Below are positions 7,944 through 56,416 of a stretch of DNA of 64,000 bases, piece by piece. Numbering within the stretch: the stretch's first letter is position 1; each line of letters begins with the position of its first letter. This stretch comes from Prevotellaceae bacterium. GTDB lineage: Bacteria > Bacteroidota > Bacteroidia > Bacteroidales > Bacteroidaceae. Position numbers and translations under genes: made by a program. The notes below the pieces were generated by a model that saw only the letters and a program-made list of their open reading frames with translations, was not told where the DNA came from and did no database searches. The stretch is from positions 124,001-188,000 of the forward strand of contig JAQYEW010000012.1 in NCBI GenBank assembly GCA_028723455.1. The letters are read 5' to 3'.

Positions 7944-7980
7944 CTCGTCCGTCAACTTTTCCAATCAAACAAAACACAAA

Positions 7981-8008
7981 AGCACCCTTAACGGGTGCTT
8001 TTTTTTGC
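7981..8008 (+). terminator. rho-independent terminator of bamD-rpoZ-DUF4293 operon
   Basis: AGCACCC-TTAAC-GGGTGCT followed by T run. Confidence 0.85.
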
Positions 8009-8420
8009 TTCATATCACAGTTTTTGAAAATCATTCAATAGTTTTCTGCAAAACTATTATATAAAACTTCCCCCTCTTCTGTTTGTTTTTTCCGTTCTAA
8101 AAACCCGAATCCTCACTCCCCAACCCCATTTATCGGCCTAAAGCCCCACGCTACCAGCCCACCGGCATCCAAGAAACACTGACAGACAGTAAGTTACAAA
8201 AACACCCGAAACAAGGGAAGATGAAGGAATTTTTCAAGAAACACCAAAAATACAAGCTTTCGAAAATGCAAAAAGAAAGGGAATCCTCCGATTTACTTAC
8301 TTTTCGACAGAACACAACACAAGAGCCGCCCCATGTTATCTGATTTCGGATATAGGGCGAGTTGTAAGTTAAGTCAGGTTCCCCTCATCAAAACCAGAGA
8401 TAAAGTAAATTACAAAAAAC

Positions 8421-9125
8421 CTAACGCTTTGTTCGCTTGATGTCGAAGAGATAGGATAGTTTTACCGTGATGGTACCGTTTGCAGAGCGTGAGAAAGCAT
8501 CCGCCTTTCCGTTCTTGAAGATATCACTCAAAGCATAAAAATACCGGCCCTCGAGAACGAAATGACCCACAGACGTGCTTATTTCCATGCCTGCACCTCC
8601 CGCCAAACCATACTCGAACTTGTTTTGAACGGGGAGGTCGTATTGCGCCGTAATATTGTTGGGGCGCAGAGAAAGCGTTGCTTCGGACCACTCTCCCCCA
8701 CGCTTTTCCTTGCTTCCGACCATATAACCCACCTGAGGTCCCAAAGCGATGAAACCACACACGCCACGATGCTCCTTGCCGAAAGCCAAACGAGCCAAGA
8801 GGGGAAGCTGGACATAAGTAATGCTGCGCTCGTAGGTGTCGCCACTCGTTTCAATGAGTTCCTTCCATCCTAATTGGGCGTAATTCAACTCCGCCTGCAA
8901 CGCGCAGAGAATACTGTAGTAGCGCTCGCTCGTATAGCGCAGCGTAACGCCACCCGTAAGGCCATTGTGAAAGCTCTGTTTGATGGTTGGGTTGAAGGTA
9001 ACCTTGTTCAGCGCATAACCGCCATTGACACCAATAGCCAGGTCGCTTCGATACTGCCCTACCTGGGCCATCGCCTGTCCGACGGAAGAGACCAGAAGAA
9101 TCAGGAAAACACGGAACGTCCTCAT
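8421..9125 (-). CDS. porT: PorT-family outer membrane beta-barrel (type IX secretion-associated)
   Basis: Signal peptide, beta-barrel pattern, resembles PorT/PorT-like proteins. Confidence 0.7.
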   Translation of the reverse strand: MRTFRVFLILLVSSVGQAMAQVGQYRSDLAIGVNGGYALNKVTFNPTIKQSFHNGLTGGVTLRYTSERYYSILCALQAELNYAQLGWKELIETSGDTYERSITYVQLPLLARLAFGKEHRGVCGFIALGPQVGYMVGSKEKRGGEWSEATLSLRPNNITAQYDLPVQNKFEYGLAGGAGMEISTSVGHFVLEGRYFYALSDIFKNGKADAFSRSANGTITVKLSYLFDIKRTKR

Positions 9126-10198
9126 CGGATCACTGATATTAAGCGGTTAGGCGAATAATGAACCAACTCCACAAAACTGTTGACATACCCCCCTTGCCCG
9201 TCAACCTGAATAAAACGATAGCCGTTTTGAAGCGGACTGACATTATCCATCAACAATGCGAGGCCGAGATCGAATCCCGTCATGCAAAGCGAGGGAGACT
9301 GGCTTGGCATTTCAGCATGGAAAAAGTCCTTGTACTGACGGCGGAATCTGATGGTGCGCCCGCTGAGGGGATTACAGTAGAACGTAGTAAAGATATAAGT
9401 GTCCAGGCTATGGAAAACCGCACTGTACGCCTCCGCCCTCTCCAGCCAGTCGGGATAGCCCAAGAGCGAAAGCTTATAGCCGGGATTAGCGTCCTGGAAA
9501 CGCTTCAGCACACCGGCAGCATGCTGCAACGCCGGTTCGGCAGGGCTATCCAGCAAAATAACGTTTCGGCGTGTAATGCTCATCGCACGGTCCAACGCCA
9601 AATCGTCAGCGTTCACGTTCAAGTCGGAAAAACTCACGCCAAATTGTTCCAACTGCTGCCGCAAAGCATTCTGAAGCGCCACACCGCGCTCGTTGTAATT
9701 ATTGGTTTTAAGAAACACAAAATGAGCGTCAGCAAAGTTTTCCATTACCAGCTGCAAGGCGAACTGCGTCTGAACTTCGGGGGAAGCTATTGCCTGATAG
9801 ACGGATGGATTTGACGGCAAAGAGGCGTAAGGCGTATTGAAGGGCATGACGAGCCGTATGCCATGCCGATGACAATAATCCGCCAGGGCATCCGTCTGTG
9901 CCGCCACACCCGGACCAATTACGAAATCCATTTCCCTTAGTTCTCCGCTTCGCAGTATCTCGTCAAGCTGCGAGGTGTTTGCGCCGGCATCCAAAGCATG
10001 AATCTCAAGGGTCTGGCCCAAACTGCGCACACTGTCCGCCGCCATCAGGAAACCGCGATAAAATTCCACCATACTCTCCTGCATGGCGCCTCCCGAACCA
10101 AACGGCAAAAGCACGGCCACACGCCGTTGGGCAAAGGCGGGCATGAGAGAACATAAGACAAGGCTGACGGCTAATATTTTTTTCACTCGAAAAGGCAT
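9122..10198 (-). CDS. periplasmic type 1 substrate-binding-like protein
   Basis: Signal peptide; RRVAVLLPFGSGG...FYRGFLMAADSV...VIGPGVAAQTDALADYCHRHGIRLVMPFNT; overlaps porT by 4 bp. Confidence 0.7.
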   Translation of the reverse strand: MPFRVKKILAVSLVLCSLMPAFAQRRVAVLLPFGSGGAMQESMVEFYRGFLMAADSVRSLGQTLEIHALDAGANTSQLDEILRSGELREMDFVIGPGVAAQTDALADYCHRHGIRLVMPFNTPYASLPSNPSVYQAIASPEVQTQFALQLVMENFADAHFVFLKTNNYNERGVALQNALRQQLEQFGVSFSDLNVNADDLALDRAMSITRRNVILLDSPAEPALQHAAGVLKRFQDANPGYKLSLLGYPDWLERAEAYSAVFHSLDTYIFTTFYCNPLSGRTIRFRRQYKDFFHAEMPSQSPSLCMTGFDLGLALLMDNVSPLQNGYRFIQVDGQGGYVNSFVELVHYSPNRLISVIR

Positions 10199-10218
10199 GA
10201 TAATGATTTGTTTGGGAA

Positions 10219-10226
10219 CAAAGGTA
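10219..10226 (-). promoter_or_regulatory. -7 box TACCTTTG for the 10198 gene/porT
   Basis: CAAAGGTA on plus strand, about 20 nt upstream of ATG. Confidence 0.6.
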
Positions 10227-10290
10227 AGCAAAGGAGAGAACAAAAACAAAAAACGGGGGACTAAGGTTGGGAAATGTGGTAAGTTTTTTG

Positions 10291-10298
10291 TACCTTTG
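10291..10298 (+). promoter_or_regulatory. -7 box TACCTTTG for the 10328 gene
   Basis: TACCTTTG, 30 bp upstream of ATG. Confidence 0.6.
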
Positions 10299-10327
10299 GA
10301 CTCTTAGGAACATGAAAAGTATGTATT

Positions 10328-11047
10328 ATGTATAAGGCTTTACGATACCTCTTTCTTCTTTTTGCGCTGGCAAACCAGCAGGGCGCATGGGCACAATTCC
10401 CCTCTATTGACCCGCAGGCGCTCTACACCGACGCACAGGGCGAGGAAACGTCTGATGCCTCGCAAGGCATGAATGCGCCTCTTAGAGCGTTATTTAGCTC
10501 GAACCCCAGCAACCTGGGCGCATACCAAGCCCGCTACGAATGGAAAATATACGAGCCGGGGAAGAAAGAGACACCCCTTGTCCACCGCTTTGAAGAAAAC
10601 ATGGAATACACCTTTGAGCGAAGCGGAACATTCCTGGTACAAGTATATGCGACTTTCGTGCTTGACGGCGACACGATAACCTTTCCCGAAGAGGGAGAGG
10701 AAAACCCCTTCCAAGTAACCATCCGGGAAAGCAAATTGGAATTGCCCAACGCCTTCAGCCCGAACGGCGACGGCTTCAACGACATCTACAAGGTGAAGGA
10801 AGGCTACCAAAGCATTGTTTCATTCAAAGCCACCATCATCAACCGCTGGGGACAGAAGATTTACAGTTGGACAAATATCGCTGAAGGATGGGACGGGAAA
10901 TGGAACGGCCGCACCGTGAAGGACGGGGTCTATTTCGTCATCGTCGATGCCCGTGGGGCTGACGGACACCACTACAAGATCCGCAAGGACGTGAATGTCC
11001 TGACAGGCTATGAAAGCCAGAACCAAAACAACACGGGGGACAATTGA
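10328..11047 (+). CDS. secreted protein with gliding-motility/CHU_C type-B T9SS sorting domain
   Basis: LPNAFSPNGDGFNDIYKV...IINRWGQKIYSWTNIAEGWDGKWNGRTVKDGVYFVIVDA. Confidence 0.9.
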   Translation: MYKALRYLFLLFALANQQGAWAQFPSIDPQALYTDAQGEETSDASQGMNAPLRALFSSNPSNLGAYQARYEWKIYEPGKKETPLVHRFEENMEYTFERSGTFLVQVYATFVLDGDTITFPEEGEENPFQVTIRESKLELPNAFSPNGDGFNDIYKVKEGYQSIVSFKATIINRWGQKIYSWTNIAEGWDGKWNGRTVKDGVYFVIVDARGADGHHYKIRKDVNVLTGYESQNQNNTGDN

Positions 11048-41934: not shown

Positions 41935-42002
41935 AAAAAAACATCGGGTAATTTTGATGAAAATAAATATATAATTGGATCAAAATTACCCGATGTTTTT
42001 TT
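41935..42002. terminator. convergent bidirectional terminator, 24-bp perfect arms
   Basis: AAAAAAACATCGGGTAATTTTGAT (41935-41958) / ATCAAAATTACCCGATGTTTTTTT (41979-42002). Confidence 0.8.
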
Positions 42003-42010
42003 CGTGTCCT

Positions 42011-44224
42011 TTAGCGGCGTTTTTCACGCTGTTGAATGGCTTTTTGGAATTGCTCGAAATTGATGTTGGGCATATCCTCTCTCAACACCTTTTTCAGATA
42101 TTGAACCGTGGCCTCATCCATGCGTCCGCTCTCTTGCCAGGCATACAGGATGCTCTTGAGGAAGGGCGTCAGGGGAACGTTGGCCTGCTCATACAGTTCC
42201 ATGATATCCGCACGCCGGTGCAGGGGTATGTCGGCATACACGCGCTCCGTAAGGGGCTTTCCACCCAGGTTGCCCAACGACTTCTGCGCCACCTGACCCG
42301 TCTTTCCGAACATGGGATAACGGCCGTCGCGGTCGGTAACGGCACGGGGCAAGATGGCGGCATCATAGTATCGGGCAAAAAGCGTGGTGTCCGGAATGGA
42401 CTTGAGCCGACGCTCCCATGCCGTTACATTCCGCATGCGCGTATCATAGAACTCCCAATGCGGAATCTCCTGCTCGATGTTATTCAACGCACCTGCCAGG
42501 CTCACAAAACTACCGGCCAGTTTCACCATCAGTTCGTCGTTGTCCGTCATGTCAAAGGCCGCCCATGCCACACCGTCCTGCACGCCAAAGGCATCCATCG
42601 GGCGGTTGGGAACAAGGACGATATAACTTTGAATCGTGTCGCCATACTGCGGACGCGGTACAGGCAGTTTGCCGTAGACCATCTGCTTCGCCGTGTCCAC
42701 CTTCATCGTGGCGCCCGTCGCATCAGGAGCCAGCGCAAGATAGGTGCGGCCGGCCTCCTGACGTTCCAAACGGATAAAGCCGGTATGGCTCATTCCCGTC
42801 AGACTCAGGCGGGCTTGTTCATCCGGCAACGAGGCCGAATAGTAATCGGGATGCCGGACTTCCGGACCCAACTTAAGCCCCCATTCCTGACGGTCCAGGA
42901 CAAGGGTATCCAATAGAGGCATCAGGGTGAAGCTGCCATAATCGCCGCCATCCTCGGTAGGATGGGCTGCCTGAACGCCTTGCAGGGTGCCTGCATGCCG
43001 ACGGGGAGTCCAAACGACCATGGGGTTAGGTTCAAAGACACGTCCGTCGCCCAAACCTCGCAGAGCGCGTTGCATCCCGAAGCGCGTCTGACGCTTCTTG
43101 AGATACGCCAACACACGGTTCCATTGCTCGTAGGGAGGCATTTCATTAGGCAAGCCAAACTGACGCTTGTCGCGCTCGTTCATCATCAGCTTCGCCATGA
43201 CCTGCTTGCCTTTGGCATAAAAAATGATACGCAGATTGGCGCCCAAGGGCAGAAAATCACTCAGGCGGTTCACGTGCTCGTCGCTCAGATTGTTGAAGCC
43301 TACGATGGAAATCAAGCGATGCAAACTTTCAAGGGAGGTGAAATAAACGTCCGCCTTCGCCCCTTGCCGCATAGCCTCCATCCCGTGATTCAGGAGGTTG
43401 TCCAGCGTTTGCGACGCAGACTCCAAGGGGAAACCATAGCTGTCCGGACTTTGGCCGGCCAAGGTCCACAGGCGTTCGTCTTCCTGGTCGAAGACGGCAC
43501 GCAATTCGTTCCCCCCAATAAAGGATTCCAGGCGACTGCCCTCGCCCACGACTTGCAGCAGGACATGGAGGCGCGCCACCTGACGCATCAGGGAAAAACT
43601 CTCCTTTCCGTCCACAGGTCCGGTGAAGAAAGCCTGCGCCCATTGCCGTCCATCATACCAAGAATCGGGGCTGAACGAAAGCAACTGCTCCTCTTCGCTT
43701 GTCAGCGGAGCCTGCCAAGGCTCGGCAATCGGCTGTGCAGGCACTTCTTTCTTTGCCAGCCCAGCCTGAAAAGCACGTGCGGCCATGCCGCCGTCCGCGG
43801 CAGATGCCGTATGCAGGCGTACCGAGGCACCGTTGAGCATCGCAGCGTAAGTCTCCTGGAAACGCACTCCCAACGTCTCCTGCAACTGCGCCTGATAGAC
43901 ATTCAGGGAACGGTGCAAGGCTTTCTTTCGGATAATCTGCTCCACCGCCTTGCGCAGCTGTCTGCCTCGTTTGGAGAGCGGCTGGCCGGACAGCGACCGA
44001 AGAATCGTCCCGGCAGGCTCGAGCAAGGAAACATCGCTCATGTCGCGACTCACTTGCAATACATAAACGGGCTGATAGCCCTCAGGGGACAGTCCCCCAA
44101 GCGTGTCGCCCATGCCCCATGTGTATGCCCCCCAAGTACCCGTCTGCTGCCCTTGTTGCGCTTGGGCAAAAAAGGCGCAGAACATGAGGGAAAGGCTTAG
44201 AAATATCGTTTTGATTGTTGTCAT
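42011..44224 (-). CDS. secreted protein: degenerate histidine-acid-phosphatase-like region fused to truncated GH92-like domain
   Basis: signal peptide; HAP-like FLPLGANLRIIFYAKGKQVMAKLMMNERD; GH92-like GGDYGSFTLMPLL, VKLAGSFVSLAGALNNIEQEIPHWEF, DRDGRYPMFGK. Confidence 0.6.
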   Translation of the reverse strand: MTTIKTIFLSLSLMFCAFFAQAQQGQQTGTWGAYTWGMGDTLGGLSPEGYQPVYVLQVSRDMSDVSLLEPAGTILRSLSGQPLSKRGRQLRKAVEQIIRKKALHRSLNVYQAQLQETLGVRFQETYAAMLNGASVRLHTASAADGGMAARAFQAGLAKKEVPAQPIAEPWQAPLTSEEEQLLSFSPDSWYDGRQWAQAFFTGPVDGKESFSLMRQVARLHVLLQVVGEGSRLESFIGGNELRAVFDQEDERLWTLAGQSPDSYGFPLESASQTLDNLLNHGMEAMRQGAKADVYFTSLESLHRLISIVGFNNLSDEHVNRLSDFLPLGANLRIIFYAKGKQVMAKLMMNERDKRQFGLPNEMPPYEQWNRVLAYLKKRQTRFGMQRALRGLGDGRVFEPNPMVVWTPRRHAGTLQGVQAAHPTEDGGDYGSFTLMPLLDTLVLDRQEWGLKLGPEVRHPDYYSASLPDEQARLSLTGMSHTGFIRLERQEAGRTYLALAPDATGATMKVDTAKQMVYGKLPVPRPQYGDTIQSYIVLVPNRPMDAFGVQDGVAWAAFDMTDNDELMVKLAGSFVSLAGALNNIEQEIPHWEFYDTRMRNVTAWERRLKSIPDTTLFARYYDAAILPRAVTDRDGRYPMFGKTGQVAQKSLGNLGGKPLTERVYADIPLHRRADIMELYEQANVPLTPFLKSILYAWQESGRMDEATVQYLKKVLREDMPNINFEQFQKAIQQREKRR

Positions 44225-44245: not shown

Positions 44246-45799
44246 TCAGTATCTGACGCCCATGGTCAGCCCCAGAAGCGTAAGGTTCATGTGGGACTGG
44301 GCACGCAGGTAATCCACACTCGCCTTAATATAATAAGGTATAGGACGCTTGCCCAAGCACAGCCGGTCGGTCCAGGTCAGACGCAACTGGCAGCGGCCAT
44401 AGTCGGCGGAATAATAAGGACTGTCCGGAAGCAGCACCTGCTTGGCATACTCCGTGGTGGGGTCCGCCAGATTCATCTTGTACTCCAGGCTGCGATGCCA
44501 ATCCAACTCCATATCCAGCCACAGACGTTTCTTCCACAGGCTCACGCCCCCTTGGAGCGACAGTTCCAGACTGCGATTGTCAATCCGGGACAGGGGCAGG
44601 AGGTGCTTTTGCGTAAGGTCGTTGTACAGCAAGCCCAAACCCACATAATGACGCGCGCGCTCACCCTCCAGGAAGTGGAGGCGATAGTCGGCACGCAGCA
44701 TCACATCCGTTTGCTGGTATCGCTTGCGGAATGTGAACAGCGTTTCCCAGCTTTGCGTGTCATAGCCCGTTTGCGAATCACGCACAATCTGCAACTGCTG
44801 GATATGTTCATCGGCATAGGCCTGTCGGGCATTGAAGCGCGCCGAGAGGCTGTGCATCAGATGTCCGTGCGTAAGACGGTGTTCGCTGGCAAACAGATAG
44901 TCATAGGTGAAGAAACGGCCGGGCTGACGCATATTGGTCTCATAGATACGCTCGTTGGCACGACCGACGCCGAGGGTGGTCAGCTGATTGTAACGCACCG
45001 ACTTGAAGCCGTAGCTCAGCCGCGCCTGAAAATCATGGTTTACGTACTCACGCATGAATCCGCCATAGCCGCCCTTACTGCCCTTGACCGCCTCCAGACC
45101 AGTCATCTCGTAGTACATCAGATTGGCATCGGTCTGCACGGTGGTCATGTTGGGAATCTTTTCCTTGCGACGATCGTAATGCGCACTCAAGCCCAGGGTG
45201 TGGCGACCCAAACTGTGGGTAACGCTGGGTGTCAGCACGTATTGCATCAGTTGCGCACGGCTGCGTGGGTCGCGCAAGCGGCTCAGGTCGCCAGCAGTAT
45301 AATCCAAGCGCAGACCAACGCGCCAAGGACCCAGCCTGCGGGTACCCACGGCTCCCGTCAGTTCAAACAGTTGGCTGTCATAACTGCCACGCACACTGCT
45401 GCCCGAAAGAAAAGGGTTGCCGGCATAGGGACGCCATTGGTCCGCCCAAGCGCGTTGCTTGGTATGGTTCATATTAAAGGCAAAACGGCCATAGACATGC
45501 AAAAGACTACCGACACGCTGGTAACGCTCCGTCTCAAAATTGACATTGGAACGGAAGGTTCCCTCCTGCACACGGAGATAATCGCCCTGACGACGCTGTG
45601 CGCCAATGGCAGCCCAACCACAGTTTTCGGCACTGTCCACCCCTAATGCGGCGGCGTTGTTGGTGGTATGCCACAGCTGCGTCGCGTCCAGATAGCGGCT
45701 ACGAGCTTCTTCGGCTACGGAGAGGCTGTCCTGTGCCCTGATGCCAAGAGAGACAAAAAGGGACAAAGAGAAAAGAAGGGTATTATTTAGCTTCGTCAT
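44246..45799 (-). CDS. DUF6850-like outer membrane beta-barrel protein
   Basis: signal peptide; alternating beta-strand pattern to aromatic-containing C-terminus (LGLTMGVRY). Confidence 0.6.
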   Translation of the reverse strand: MTKLNNTLLFSLSLFVSLGIRAQDSLSVAEEARSRYLDATQLWHTTNNAAALGVDSAENCGWAAIGAQRRQGDYLRVQEGTFRSNVNFETERYQRVGSLLHVYGRFAFNMNHTKQRAWADQWRPYAGNPFLSGSSVRGSYDSQLFELTGAVGTRRLGPWRVGLRLDYTAGDLSRLRDPRSRAQLMQYVLTPSVTHSLGRHTLGLSAHYDRRKEKIPNMTTVQTDANLMYYEMTGLEAVKGSKGGYGGFMREYVNHDFQARLSYGFKSVRYNQLTTLGVGRANERIYETNMRQPGRFFTYDYLFASEHRLTHGHLMHSLSARFNARQAYADEHIQQLQIVRDSQTGYDTQSWETLFTFRKRYQQTDVMLRADYRLHFLEGERARHYVGLGLLYNDLTQKHLLPLSRIDNRSLELSLQGGVSLWKKRLWLDMELDWHRSLEYKMNLADPTTEYAKQVLLPDSPYYSADYGRCQLRLTWTDRLCLGKRPIPYYIKASVDYLRAQSHMNLTLLGLTMGVRY

Positions 45800-47006
45800 A
45801 AACTCGGATTCCTATGGAGGTTGACACTTGAAAATCGGCAGAGGAATTATTCGTATCGCTCAGCAGTTTTTGTCCGCTACGCCCCACGCCCGCCGTACGC
45901 CTGTAAACGATTTCCCCCGTCCATCCGCTCACGGCTTGGATATGTGTATAACCCGCGTCAATATCGTTGCCCAGACGCTTGCTCTCCACATCTACGCCCG
46001 TACTCTTTTGGCGTAAGATGTCCACGGCATCCACAACCTCGCGCTTTGGCAAAACAAGCCATTGTGTGCCGCTGGACTTGCCATAGGCATAAGTGCGCGC
46101 ATAAGTGCTGACATCGGCATGGGTGCGGAAAATAACGAGGCCACAGGGACCGCTCTGCACCAGATTCATGTACGAGAGCGAGGCATTGGGCGTGAACAAC
46201 AATTCAAGGGCAGGCACGTCGGGATTATTTACAAAGATACCGCTGGCGTTCTTCGCTTCAAAGTCCGCATGAGAAAGGTCATGCTCCATATCGTTGTTGG
46301 GTGTGTGGTCCGTGGCACTGTTCACCAGCAGGACGGTGCCGCCAGGTGCAACAGGGCATGGCGCAGACGCTGGGATACGGAACACCTGTTTCAGAAGTAC
46401 AACGCTGTCGGCAAAGGCCGTGTGCAGATTATCCAAGGTGTAGGCGGGTGTACTCTCGCTCTCCACAAGACCCAGATAAAGCCCACTGACATCCACGGAA
46501 TCGTCGGATTGGTTGTACAGTTCCACAAACTTTCCCGCCAGATAGTTTCTGACGCCCTTGGAGCCTGCATAGAACACCTTGCCGATGACAATGTCGCCAT
46601 TCTTCGAGAGCGTCAAAGCCAAGTCCGTCTGCTCCTCTGCGCCAATCATCACGCTCAGCCTTTGCCCTACCGCCACGCCACCACGTGTAGCCGTAGGATC
46701 GCCCGTCAACTGGCGATAGGCTTCATTCTCCAGGCTGAGCGAGGCACTGATGTCATAGATGCCGGGGGTCAGGTTTGAAAAGACAGCCACTCCCCCAGCA
46801 TCCGTTTGGGCCTCATATTTGTGGGTGGATGTAGAAAGTGTAACCGTGCGTTGGGCAACCAAAGCGGCGGACTGATCCTTGTCCAAGCCCTCAGGTGCCA
46901 AAAGGCGGACACGATGGCTCACGGTACCCGTGGCATCGTCCATGTCCACACAGGACACCGGCATCAGGCACACGATGCAAAGAAGCGTAAAAATATAGGT
47001 TCTCAT
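45783..47006 (-). CDS. DUF4876 family lipoprotein (paralogue B)
   Basis: lipobox LMPVSC; KVFYAGSKGVRNYLAGKFVELYNQSDDSVDVSGLYLGLVES; DTNNSSADF. Confidence 0.78.
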   Translation of the reverse strand: MRTYIFTLLCIVCLMPVSCVDMDDATGTVSHRVRLLAPEGLDKDQSAALVAQRTVTLSTSTHKYEAQTDAGGVAVFSNLTPGIYDISASLSLENEAYRQLTGDPTATRGGVAVGQRLSVMIGAEEQTDLALTLSKNGDIVIGKVFYAGSKGVRNYLAGKFVELYNQSDDSVDVSGLYLGLVESESTPAYTLDNLHTAFADSVVLLKQVFRIPASAPCPVAPGGTVLLVNSATDHTPNNDMEHDLSHADFEAKNASGIFVNNPDVPALELLFTPNASLSYMNLVQSGPCGLVIFRTHADVSTYARTYAYGKSSGTQWLVLPKREVVDAVDILRQKSTGVDVESKRLGNDIDAGYTHIQAVSGWTGEIVYRRTAGVGRSGQKLLSDTNNSSADFQVSTSIGIRVYDEAK

Positions 47007-47017
47007 TTTTTTTGCGA

Positions 47018-49795
47018 TTAGAAGTTAAACGACAATTCCGCACCAAACGAGAAAGTGCCCGTATTGCGCTGCGTCAGCGTCCCACTGAGGTTGCCCGTCA
47101 GGAAAGGTTCGTAGAAAAGGGCGTTATTCACGTAAAACGAGAGCGAGCCAATGCGTCCCAGTTCCTTTGTCAGACGTGCCTGCAGGTTCCAGGTTACGGG
47201 TTGCTTGCTTGGGCGTGAGTCTGTGTAACGTTTCTCAAGGTCGGTAATATGAACGCTCTGCTGCCCTACAGGCGCAGTAGCATAGTAACGCCCATCCATA
47301 CCCAGATACCCGCTTAATTGCTCCGGCAAGAGCGTGTGATATTGGAGCTTGTCATCAATCCACCCGATCGGGCTTTTGTCCGCAGTATGACTCCACGAAC
47401 TGCTGTGCCAGATAGCCTGGGCCGTGAACGAAGCCACCATGCGCAGACGGGGAATGTTCGTTACCACACGCAGGGTGGTAAGCAAGCGACGATAGCGACT
47501 GAAGTCTCCGCCGTTTGGATAAACGACCTTGAAGGGCGTTGTGTTAAAGACGCTGTACTCCGCAGGCAGAATGCTGGCACGGGGCGATTCGGCATTAACG
47601 TCCGTGCTCCAGGTTTTAGTCTCGCTCCAGGCACCAGACACATAAAGGCGCGTATTCAGGTGCGGCAACTCTCCCAAGTCGAAATCAGCCTCGATACCAC
47701 GATTCACGCTGGTATTCGTGTTGCCGATGGCCCCTGTGGTCATGAACACCAGAAGCTGACGTGCGGGGTTGCCCCAATCAATGGCTGTGGGGCCCGTAGG
47801 GTTGATGATCAAACCTTGTGCCTGGGAATAATAATTATAGGTATAGGTAGCGTACCGGGTGAGCGAACCAAAACCGTTCGGAGTCCGGTCGTGATAAGCC
47901 ACCAGACTAAGGTGGCGTTGTCCGGGCAACTTCACGTCGATGCCCGCCTCAATCTTCGTGGTCGTGGCGTTTTTCAGGTCCTTGCTCTTTCGGACATCAT
48001 AGACCTGGGTGTGATACCACACCAACTGGCCGGCGGTATTCGTCTGCGGCAGATAGTTGGCAACCTCCCGGTCGTCGTATTTCTTGTCCGGATAGAGGTA
48101 ATCCAAACCGGGTGATTTGGAATTCAAGCCAATACCACCACGCACATCAAGCCACTTCGTCAGGCTCAGCATGACGTTCAAACGGGGCGAGAGAGCCGTT
48201 GTTGCGACCTCGCTGAAAGGCTGCAACGAGGTAAAACGCAAACCCATGTTGACGTTCAAACGACGCACACGATCCAGCTGCCATGTGAAATTATCCTCAG
48301 CAAAGAGTGATAACCGATGCAAACCCGGCACGTCGCTGAAGGCACGAGGGCGTCCGCTGCTGTTGGGCTTCAACGGCAACGAATCGTTGGCATTGAAAAA
48401 GCCACGTCCCGAATTCCAATCGTAATTGTATTCCGCACCCACCTTGAAGCTCTGCTGTGTCTTGCCATGACGGAAGAAGAAACTGTCCGTCAGTTTGGCA
48501 AAGACATTGCCGGGTCGGCTCTGCGTCGTTCCTTGGGCGCGATAGGCCTTTGTTTGCCATGAAACAGGATAATAACCCGTCTGCATGGCTGTAAGGATAG
48601 GCAGGAAACCCGTTGAATTGGCAACCCACGTATCCTGATAGCTCTCGCTTTGACCGTAGTTCAAGCCCAATGTGTAGCGCAAGCTACGCGCCAAGGGAAG
48701 CCCCAACTGCACACGTCCGTTGTGGGTCAGTTGAAGGTTCATGGTCGTGCTCTTTGTCTCCGTACCGTCAATCCTTGCGTCGGGGTCGTTACCGCTCCAA
48801 TCCTGTGCATACAGGAAACGCAACTTGGTGTCCGTATGCCATCTGCGGCTAATGTCCTTGGCATAACCCACAGAGCCGGTCCAACGCCCAAAAGAACGTG
48901 TCTTCTGACGAGGGTCTCCCCACGCCTTGGCAAAGTCGCCACTGAAGTTTAACACGCCCGCACGGCGTAAGTTCAAGCCCTTGCTTACGCTGTAGTTCTG
49001 GAGCTCAGGCGTAACCTTACCCCTCACCTGCCAGGGCGTAACACCCACTTTGGAATGAACCATCACCAATCCCGAACTCAAATCACCGTATTCAGCCGAA
49101 GGGATGCCACGCACCACCTCCACCTCCTGAATATCGTCGGCGGAAATCTGACGCAGATCGGTACCCACAAAGGCCGTGCTTGAGAAGCCCCCTTGGGTCA
49201 TCATCCCATTGTTGGACATGGGCATCCCGTCCACCACAATACTGGAACCAAAGGCGTTCGTATTGTTGTTGACCAAACTACGCAGCTGCAAATTGCTTTG
49301 TTGCGTAAAGTCGGTATTGCCCATCTGCTGACCAGGCAAGAGCTGCATCACATCGGCCAGGGAAACGGCCTGCAAATGGTCCAGGGCTTGTCGGCCGATC
49401 ACACTGCTCGTGGAGGCTCCACTGGTACGCTGCCGTGCCGTTACGTTGACCTCCTTCAGCGCCAGGGTCTGCTGTTGCATCTTGTACTTCAGACTCAAAT
49501 CGGCCTCCACTCGTACTTGCGTGCGGACACCCTCGTATCCCACATAATTGATACGCAGCGTATATACGCCCTTGGGCACACGCTGTATCTCCGCCAGACC
49601 GTTGACATCCGTAACAGCGGTCATTCCGCCCGGCTGCAACTGCACTACGGCCATCACGATGGGTTCCTGATCCGTCTTGTCCGTAACCTCCACACGTAGC
49701 GTAGAACCTTTGGCCTGAGCCATAACGAAAGTTGCCGACAGTACCATCAGCACCATCAGCAACCCACGTAAAAGATATTGAATATGTCGAAACAT
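47018..49795 (-). CDS. TonB-dependent receptor with carboxypeptidase-regulatory-like N-terminal domain
   Basis: STLRVEVTDKTDQEPIVMAVVQL, plug domain SSIVVDGMPMSNNGMM...IQEVEVVRGIPSAEYGDLSSG, C-terminal barrel ending SFGAELSFNF. Confidence 0.95.
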   Translation of the reverse strand: MFRHIQYLLRGLLMVLMVLSATFVMAQAKGSTLRVEVTDKTDQEPIVMAVVQLQPGGMTAVTDVNGLAEIQRVPKGVYTLRINYVGYEGVRTQVRVEADLSLKYKMQQQTLALKEVNVTARQRTSGASTSSVIGRQALDHLQAVSLADVMQLLPGQQMGNTDFTQQSNLQLRSLVNNNTNAFGSSIVVDGMPMSNNGMMTQGGFSSTAFVGTDLRQISADDIQEVEVVRGIPSAEYGDLSSGLVMVHSKVGVTPWQVRGKVTPELQNYSVSKGLNLRRAGVLNFSGDFAKAWGDPRQKTRSFGRWTGSVGYAKDISRRWHTDTKLRFLYAQDWSGNDPDARIDGTETKSTTMNLQLTHNGRVQLGLPLARSLRYTLGLNYGQSESYQDTWVANSTGFLPILTAMQTGYYPVSWQTKAYRAQGTTQSRPGNVFAKLTDSFFFRHGKTQQSFKVGAEYNYDWNSGRGFFNANDSLPLKPNSSGRPRAFSDVPGLHRLSLFAEDNFTWQLDRVRRLNVNMGLRFTSLQPFSEVATTALSPRLNVMLSLTKWLDVRGGIGLNSKSPGLDYLYPDKKYDDREVANYLPQTNTAGQLVWYHTQVYDVRKSKDLKNATTTKIEAGIDVKLPGQRHLSLVAYHDRTPNGFGSLTRYATYTYNYYSQAQGLIINPTGPTAIDWGNPARQLLVFMTTGAIGNTNTSVNRGIEADFDLGELPHLNTRLYVSGAWSETKTWSTDVNAESPRASILPAEYSVFNTTPFKVVYPNGGDFSRYRRLLTTLRVVTNIPRLRMVASFTAQAIWHSSSWSHTADKSPIGWIDDKLQYHTLLPEQLSGYLGMDGRYYATAPVGQQSVHITDLEKRYTDSRPSKQPVTWNLQARLTKELGRIGSLSFYVNNALFYEPFLTGNLSGTLTQRNTGTFSFGAELSFNF

Positions 49796-49807: not shown

Positions 49808-51454
49808 TTACTTCACAACAAACGTGCGGCCGCCCCTCACGTAGATGCCACGCGTAGGCTGTCCCGAGAGTTTGCGTCCACACAAGTCATAAACAGCCTC
49901 GTCGTGAATCTTACCCGCAGGAACCTCCCCAATGTCCGTTGTTATGATGGAAGGAACGTCAGCCGTAAACTTTATCGTCGCAAGGTCCGTGTAACCCGTA
50001 GCGCCATGTGTTGGGGCAATGGCATTGGCAACCGCATTCGTTACGCTCAAGTAAAAACGGTCCTCACCAGGCAAGGTCAAACTGCTGTACACTGGAGCAA
50101 AAGCCTCGTCGCGGACAAAACGCAGATTACCCGCCTCGTTTGCAAAACGGTAAAGCTGACGGTTTTTCAGCGTGGTTGTTACAACACCGTTCTGGAAACG
50201 CTCATCAGTATCCGTCGCCCAGTTGCAAATACCCGATGTCTTCACCGTAGGCTGTGCAGGCGTCGTGTAAAGGACATGCTCCCCTGGCTCGCCCACAAGA
50301 AGACAAGGGCCGGACTGCTTGATGATACTGTAAGAAAGGTAGGTGTTATACGTGAGGTCAGTATTCTTGGAATTACCGTTTATATACATGATGCTAAGGT
50401 GGCTGTCGCGCTTTCCTGTCAGACTTGATGTAGTAAAGAAGGGGAGAACGCCCGATTCGGGAATAACGACCTGGATAGGCTCACCCACAACCGCATCCGT
50501 CTCGAACTGACCCAAGCCATAGCCGATGGCAGAGGCAAAGTCCTGAGAAGAGTTATTCGTATCCATCAATGTCAGGGCACCGTCGTTGTTCACAGCCGTG
50601 CGACGGTACAGCACCTCGCCGTTTTTCCCGGTTACGGCCTGTACCGAAGCATAGCCGGCATCCAAAGAGGCCGCAAAACGCTTGCGAAGGGGGTCGGCTT
50701 GCAGGCTCTCGTCCGATTGTTTCTTCACCTTCAGCAAATCCACGCAGTCCAAGGCGTAATAGGTGTTCAGAGGCAGATACCTATTACCGGTCTCCTTGCC
50801 ATTGGCAAACACAAGGTCAGTTTCCAAGTTGAACTTCCCCTCCAACTTCGCATCCAAGATCATCAACGAACAATCGCCGCCTTGCAGCATATTAACAACA
50901 TTATCATTTGCCTTACCCGTATTGAGATAAGTGTAAACCACCTCCATGTTAGGCACGGCCTCGTTATCAGCCACAGCACCCGTAGGATCTCCGAACTCAA
51001 AACCGGCCTGACTCAAGTCATGGCCTACCTCGGCCAATGGGGTATGGTCAATCGCCGTGTTGGCAATGACAACACTGTTACGTGCAGGAAGCACGAATGC
51101 CGCACTTACAGGAATACGGAACAGTTGCTTGACAGCAACCTTATTGCTCAGCGCAGCATTTCCCACGAAAATGCCCGTGGCATCTATATTTGCCGTATAT
51201 GCACCCGTAGAGGCTTCGCTCTCCACCAAGGCAATGTACAGACCCGAGAGGTCAAGGTCTTTGTCCGAATTGTTAAACAACTCAATAAACTGACCTTTTG
51301 AGTAGGTTTTCGTACCTCCCTTCTCCGTACTTCCCGCATAAAAAACCTTACTGATAACCAAATCTCCCGAGCTGATTGCGCTGGCGGGAAGAGATAACAA
51401 ACAAAAAACGGCTGCCAATACAAGGCATGAATAACGAGTAGAAATTTTATTCAT
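49808..51454 (-). CDS. DUF4876-like secreted protein (paralogue A) with C-terminal sorting-like tail
   Basis: signal peptide; VISKVFYAGSTEKGGTKTYSKGQFIELFNNSDKDLDLSGLYIALVES; tail AVYDLCGRKLSGQPTRGIYVRGGRTFVVK; start placed at MNKISTRYS. Confidence 0.75.
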   Translation of the reverse strand: MNKISTRYSCLVLAAVFCLLSLPASAISSGDLVISKVFYAGSTEKGGTKTYSKGQFIELFNNSDKDLDLSGLYIALVESEASTGAYTANIDATGIFVGNAALSNKVAVKQLFRIPVSAAFVLPARNSVVIANTAIDHTPLAEVGHDLSQAGFEFGDPTGAVADNEAVPNMEVVYTYLNTGKANDNVVNMLQGGDCSLMILDAKLEGKFNLETDLVFANGKETGNRYLPLNTYYALDCVDLLKVKKQSDESLQADPLRKRFAASLDAGYASVQAVTGKNGEVLYRRTAVNNDGALTLMDTNNSSQDFASAIGYGLGQFETDAVVGEPIQVVIPESGVLPFFTTSSLTGKRDSHLSIMYINGNSKNTDLTYNTYLSYSIIKQSGPCLLVGEPGEHVLYTTPAQPTVKTSGICNWATDTDERFQNGVVTTTLKNRQLYRFANEAGNLRFVRDEAFAPVYSSLTLPGEDRFYLSVTNAVANAIAPTHGATGYTDLATIKFTADVPSIITTDIGEVPAGKIHDEAVYDLCGRKLSGQPTRGIYVRGGRTFVVK

Positions 51455-51490
51455 TAGTGTATATTGTACGATTGATACTGTCTTCGGCTG

Positions 51491-51498
51491 CAAAGGTA
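51491..51498 (-). promoter_or_regulatory. -7 box TACCTTTG of DUF4876/TBDR operon
   Basis: CAAAGGTA on plus strand about 36 nt upstream of ATG; weak -33. Confidence 0.65.
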
Positions 51499-51565
51499 AA
51501 CATTTCACACGAAAGACAACATACCTAATATTAATGATTTTATCTAACCCAAAGAAATAAAACAA

Positions 51566-51596
51566 TTTGTTAGTTTGAAAGAAAAGACTAACTTTG
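51566..51596 (+). promoter_or_regulatory. promoter of FKBP-type PPIase gene
   Basis: TTTG (51566-51569)-N19-TAACTTTG (51589-51596). Confidence 0.8.
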
Positions 51597-51607
51597 CAGA
51601 AAAATAC

Positions 51608-52024
51608 ATGAACAAGAAAAACCAGCAATACAAAGATGCAAACAAATTCTTTCTGAAACAGAAGGAACAGGAAGAGGGAATGCATAAGGTGCCCAATAGT
51701 GGTGTGCTTTATCGATGGATAAAACGGGGAGATGATAAACAACCTCTTTGCACACTGAACTCCATCGTTTTTGTGCGTTATTCAGGCAAATTGATTGACG
51801 GACGCGTCTTCGACAGCACCGACAACGCTCCCTTGCCAGCCTGCTTCGTTGTTAAAGACCTGATTCCAGGATGGCAAATCGCCCTGACACGCATGCGCCA
51901 AGGCGATCACATGGAGGTAATCATCCCTGAGAAATACGGCTACGGGAACAAACGAGCAGGGGACATCCCTCCCTACTCCACACTCTGCTTTGACATAGAA
52001 CTCGTGAAAGCGGAAATCAGATAA
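51608..52024 (+). CDS. FKBP-type peptidyl-prolyl cis-trans isomerase
   Basis: VFVRYSGKLIDGRVFDST...LIPGWQIALTRMRQGDHMEVIIPEKYGYG. Confidence 0.9.
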   Translation: MNKKNQQYKDANKFFLKQKEQEEGMHKVPNSGVLYRWIKRGDDKQPLCTLNSIVFVRYSGKLIDGRVFDSTDNAPLPACFVVKDLIPGWQIALTRMRQGDHMEVIIPEKYGYGNKRAGDIPPYSTLCFDIELVKAEIR

Positions 52025-52034
52025 AAGTTGGGAA

Positions 52035-52081
52035 ACAAAAAAGCGGTGGAGCCGCCCGTTCATAGGGTTGCTCCACCGCTT
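52035..52081 (-). terminator. rpoC terminator (convergent with FKBP gene)
   Basis: AAGCGGTGGAGC / GCTCCACCGCTT, followed on minus strand by TTTTTT. Confidence 0.8.
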
Positions 52082-52108
52082 CTTATCAAGTGGTTCGAGG
52101 AGGGAATA

Positions 52109-56416
<4,308 letters not shown>

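Follow-up and report, generated by a model that had tools for sequence, protein, structure and literature searches.

The closest described relatives of the protein analysed here are two unrelated groups of enzymes, the histidine acid phosphatases (HAP) of the MINPP clade, represented by the structures from Prevotella CAG:617 (7r5y) and Bacteroides thetaiotaomicron (4fdt), and the GH92 alpha-mannosidases, represented by BT3990 (2wvx), BT2199 (2wvy) and 7zgm. The chemistry of the HAP family proceeds through a phosphohistidine and is impossible once the nucleophile His has gone. The gene neighbourhood is best compared with loci that carry TonB-receptor and DUF4876 genes. Iron depletion induces two of these, PG1019-22 by 21-214-fold and BT3631-33 by 112-128-fold (PMC10434189), and a DUF4876 gene in P. 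gingivalis responds to haemin (PMC10470040). A literature search, with subscription literature outside its scope, found no paper on a HAP-GH92 fusion.

The window (the whole 64,000 nt stretch of DNA that was analysed, from a gut-type bacterium) contains a gene of this fused type, located at the end of a run of five genes on one strand that overlap or are separated by gaps of no more than 21 bp, in the order DUF4876-TonB receptor-DUF4876-DUF6850-pseudoenzyme (Table 1). The core genes of the run are adjacent, and an inverted repeat followed by seven T residues probably closes the operon. The frame opens with an ATG and the N-terminal signal sequence of the product, read by eye, is MTTIKTIFLSLSLMFCAFFAQAQQ. 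Long ORFs are also present on the opposite strand of the gene, so the open frame alone is weak evidence; a chance reading frame was considered for this reason and dismissed on the basis of homology across both halves of the product. In the interval between rpoC and the operon (51742-52109, minus strand) there is what reads as a partial FKBP-type prolyl isomerase.

Table 1. Features of the operon and of its last gene (window coordinates)
Feature	Position	Strand	Basis
DUF4876 / lamin-tail protein, first gene of the run	49808..51742	-	Pfam
TonB-dependent receptor (carboxypeptidase-regulatory-like domain and plug)	47018..49795	-	Pfam
DUF4876 / lamin-tail-domain protein	45783..47006	-	Pfam
DUF6850 protein, 21-bp gap upstream of the pseudoenzyme gene	44246..45799	-	Pfam, E 5e-76
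Apparent double pseudoenzyme: HAP(MINPP)-like, GH92N and start of GH92 catalytic domain	42011..44224	-	737 aa
Predicted signal peptide, residues 1 to ~22, ...FAQAQQ, without lipobox	44159..44224	-	sequence read by eye
HAP/MINPP-like domain, residues ~40-390	43055..44107	-	family profile vs PDB, Foldseek 7r5y, alignment
Degenerate RHGxR, residues 60-64 RDMSD	44033..44047	-	13/13 homologues have RHGSR
Degenerate HD(T)/HAE proton-donor motif, residues 297-299 SLE	43328..43336	-	alignment
GH92 N-terminal domain, residues ~395-575, several loops gone	42500..43042	-	PF17678 E 6e-9, alignment
First part of GH92 catalytic domain, residues 576-668, ending before the HGNEP and NDDAGQ segments	42221..42499	-	PF07971 positions 2-72 of 464
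Short helical tail instead of barrel, residues 669-737	42011..42220	-	alignment, AF2 model
Probable terminator: 17-bp perfect inverted repeat then T7	41935..41995	-	sequence read; loop exceeds the length covered by the terminator scan

The initial annotation had assigned the two halves of the protein to a HAP/MINPP domain and a GH92 N-terminal domain, and had proposed structure-based searches as the check. Both assignments held. A Pfam search with the 737-aa protein alone gave no HAP match, but a profile built from 14 family members matched MINPP structures at values from 1e-62 (7r5y) to 1e-41, with that of B. thetaiotaomicron at 1e-43, and GH92 structures at 1e-139. The AF2 model, though of moderate quality (pLDDT 59), matched MINPP 7r5y (E 2.2e-13) and GH92 BT3990 (E 5e-12) in Foldseek. 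The HAP fold is recognised by Foldseek and the family profile, and the GH92 N-terminal beta-sandwich by the PF17678 match at residues 412-551 (36.5 bits against the curated cut-off of 34.5). PF07971 was matched at residues 579-641 with 22.7 bits, slightly below its cut-off, while three full-length homologues (L004-L006, 1115-1133 aa) have matches to PF00328, to PF17678 and, over most or all of its length, to PF07971. The protein had also been described as stopping where the GH92 barrel should begin. The catalytic barrel is missing, but similarity to its start continues to residues ~660-668 and is followed by a helical tail of ~70 residues that is unrelated or deeply diverged.

Alignment with 13 homologues, all of which carry RHGSR, the third Arg and the HD pair, was used to examine the catalytic positions. 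In the 737-aa protein, RHGSR has become R60 D61 M62 S63 D64, with the nucleophile His (H61D) and the second Arg (R64D) both replaced by Asp. The third Arg is D144 in this alignment and a Gly in another, and the HD pair is S297 L298. Only R60 of the six HAP catalytic residues, counted in the HD register, is therefore kept, and the alignment reveals no complete catalytic site; the loss of the RHGxR His and the SLE at the proton-donor position had both been pointed out previously. E299 lines up with the Glu of the MINPP HAE motif, whose register was taken from an A324D/E325N mutant chain, and formally could be a remaining proton donor. Even if it is, phosphohistidine chemistry is impossible in this protein because the nucleophile His is gone. 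In the GH92 part, the match ends within the first 72 of 464 model positions and the HGNEP and NDDAGQ segments, present in most homologues, are missing along with the rest of the barrel and its catalytic residues. In addition, the GH92N stretches HGQTLPA and CLAPYYY are lost and SHW is changed to AHP; from GH92 structures, we take these stretches to line the mannose site. Judged by these alignments, the HAP active site is lost and the GH92 catalytic residues are absent. The acidic replacements at former catalytic positions might instead mean that a different activity, for example metal-dependent hydrolysis, has arisen in the altered HAP pocket (Asp61/Asp64, Glu299), but this seems very improbable, as Pfam found no motif of another known hydrolase and conservation is lower in the HAP half (36%) than in the GH92 parts.

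About 20 other Bacteroidales genomes, including Segatella paludivivens and many Prevotella MAGs, carry HAP-GH92 fusions whose HAP motifs are intact (L004-L006, L054, L055, L061, L063-L068 and L070-L083). Most are 1,070-1,240 aa in length and include HGNEP and NDDAGQ; the GH92 motifs are missing from L061, L080 and L081, and L068 ends at a contig end. The 737-aa protein shares their domain order and is homologous to them across both halves (E 2e-98). Its best relative, L005 in genome G538, aligns in two stretches, residues 10-384 and 395-668, and reaches 43% over the second, which is the GH92 part; none is closer. In the phylogenetic tree its branch has 4.28 changes per column and a deviating composition, and on account of this length the tree could not place it among the fusions. 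A genome-contig scan with the 737-aa protein as the single query gave no match. A search of the other 138 genomes in the genus, 400 in the family and 394 in the order turned up no further fusion with both halves dead, nor did the wider genome-contig scan; the assembly that carries the gene is itself ~88% complete. The gene is, on this homology, a fast-evolving derivative of the HAP-GH92 fusions and not a new fusion. Hence the double pseudo-enzyme of the initial annotation stands as far as the loss of both active sites is concerned, but it was evidently not assembled as such, because the fusion was inherited from a family with intact HAP motifs.

Several relatives have unusual structures. In L080 and L081, both from Prevotella MAGs (about 7977-10847), the HAP part retains RHGSR and FGHD and the GH92 catalytic core has been deleted in frame. 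L061 (3390-7379, minus strand, genome G488) is a 1330-aa frame in which a pectate-lyase/GH28-like N-terminal region, identified by reading the sequence, precedes a HAP part with RHGSR/FGHD, and the GH92 part stops short of the HGNEP segment. In the L054/L072 lineage, the fusion adjoins an apparent receptor gene, a SusD-like gene and a second GH92-like gene, all read from the sequence without a model search.

The long branch with its deviating composition also fits relaxed constraint, and it raises the question of a pseudogene in slow decay, in which a redundant fusion would have lost its 3' end and drifted with the frame still open. In favour of decay, the gene has a single carrier genome, and the same genome includes a standalone intact MINPP with RHGSR and GHE (contig C15) and two full-length GH92 genes (contig C47). 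Against this, when neutral decay of a motif-intact relative to 60, 43 or 35% identity was simulated, with GC-matched mutation and also with even base composition, 7-37 stops were expected; the gene contains no stop or frameshift. The length differences from the relatives are in frame, and the GC content of the three codon positions (0.62/0.42/0.67) is like that of the operon neighbours, a structure that is flattened in simulated decay. A 3-taxon codon model, which replaced pairwise dN/dS where dS was saturated, rejected omega=1 on the gene's own branch (2dlnL 24-37 for the whole region and 9 for the HAP half alone), but this does not prove current function because dS is saturated and the branch also spans time as an active enzyme. 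Positions invariant among homologues were kept at 36/101 in the HAP part, 35/65 in GH92N and 20/27 in the GH92 start, compared to 1/6 for the catalytic residues. Taken together, these data support purifying constraint rather than ordinary decay, if indirectly, and we consider slow decay unlikely.

The operon was compared with other loci that include DUF6850, which occurs in 47/295 genomes of the order and twice more in the same genome (C4:34609-36057 and C7:22738-24120). The DUF6850 gene on C4 is followed by genes for two C25-HEAT proteins and a papain-like protein without a Pfam match. The TBDR-DUF4876-DUF6850 arrangement was recognised in 13 of the 23 Bacteroidales loci parsed. In the loci scanned with models, many of the genes after DUF6850 encode secreted proteases of the C25-HEAT, C1, Met-zincin or S46 type with intact motifs, namely HG and DAC in C25-HEAT proteins and HExxH in Met-zincins. 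In other loci, ABC, PepSY, DUF4857 or unrelated genes were found in this position. Five loci (L102, L103, L105, L106 and L114) have C25 (gingipain-like) proteins of ~730-760 aa with HEAT repeats after DUF6850, and their HG and DAC motifs look intact; L114 also includes a C1 protease, the C-terminal part of which shows a weak HmuY-like match. We tested whether neighbouring loci likewise end in dead enzymes and rejected this, as the C25-HEAT, Met-zincin and S46 proteins retain their catalytic motifs. No relative of the HAP-GH92 fusion was found inside a DUF6850 locus in the stretches examined.

A dead protein in the slot where relatives often keep apparently active proteases would therefore probably have a binding or helper role, and the operon context, by analogy, points to an uptake system of a kind that is induced by iron starvation in relatives. 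The gene derives from a secreted ancestor with two enzymes, a MINPP-type phosphatase fused to a GH92 alpha-mannosidase, and lost both active sites while its reading frame stayed intact and constrained. We suggest that the product, presumably exported to the periplasm or envelope, has a non-catalytic role and would assist the uptake system as a binding or scaffold protein, with the HAP fold and the GH92N beta-sandwich as its likely working surfaces. There appears to be about an even chance that the protein is such a non-catalytic periplasmic or envelope pseudoenzyme, co-opted by the DUF4876-TonB receptor-DUF4876-DUF6850 system; that only one genome carries the doubly dead fusion counts against this accessory role. 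The system may be linked to iron or haem-protein acquisition. More tentatively, and with some doubt, this lineage may have converted a phosphatase-mannosidase into a non-catalytic envelope component of an operon for iron- or haem-protein uptake, in the slot that holds gingipain-like and other proteases in sister operons, which would amount to an exchange of an enzyme for a binding protein.

Phosphorylated glycans or inositol phosphates had been proposed as the ligands. The retention of the HAP and GH92N folds, and in the HAP pocket of R60 and possibly E299, would be consistent with a lectin-like, non-catalytic receptor for ancestral ligands (phytate, mannose phosphates or mannan), but these ligands are disfavoured because the phosphate-binding arginines have become Asp. 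The changes H61D, R64D and R144D/G remove the phosphate-binding charge, and the GH92N loops are deleted or altered. Furthermore, the operon is not a SusC/SusD glycan locus, unlike the fusion locus of the Segatella relatives with its apparent receptor and SusD-like gene (again read without a model search). A receptor for ancestral ligands is thus quite unlikely, and the accessory role in the uptake system remains our preferred reading.

The simultaneous death of two unrelated catalytic domains in one protein is unusual. The finding also draws attention to a TonB-receptor system of Bacteroidales (DUF4876-DUF6850) that is uncharacterised and recurrently accompanied by secreted proteases. The iron-regulated loci PG1019-22 and BT3631-33 resemble it in their receptor and DUF4876 genes but differ in that no HAP-GH92 gene is listed for them (PMC10434189). 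Compared to the MINPP-clade HAPs, residues 40-390 of the 737-aa protein are alike in fold and length, and differ in the replacement of the nucleophile His, the second and third Arg and the HD pair. The GH92 alpha-mannosidases share the GH92N beta-sandwich and the start of the catalytic domain, whereas the 737-aa protein is without the barrel and catalytic residues and several N-domain loops are deleted. The closest likeness is to the HAP-GH92 fusions of Prevotella/Segatella and other Bacteroidales (L054, L055, L061, L063-L067 and L070-L083), with which it shares domain order, homology in both halves and direct ancestry, although these relatives all keep RHGSR/GHD. The half-dead fusions L080 and L081 share with it the in-frame loss of the GH92 catalytic core, but not the loss of the HAP motifs. 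With both these half-dead relatives and the HAP-intact fusions at hand, the route from enzyme to pseudoenzyme should be traceable.
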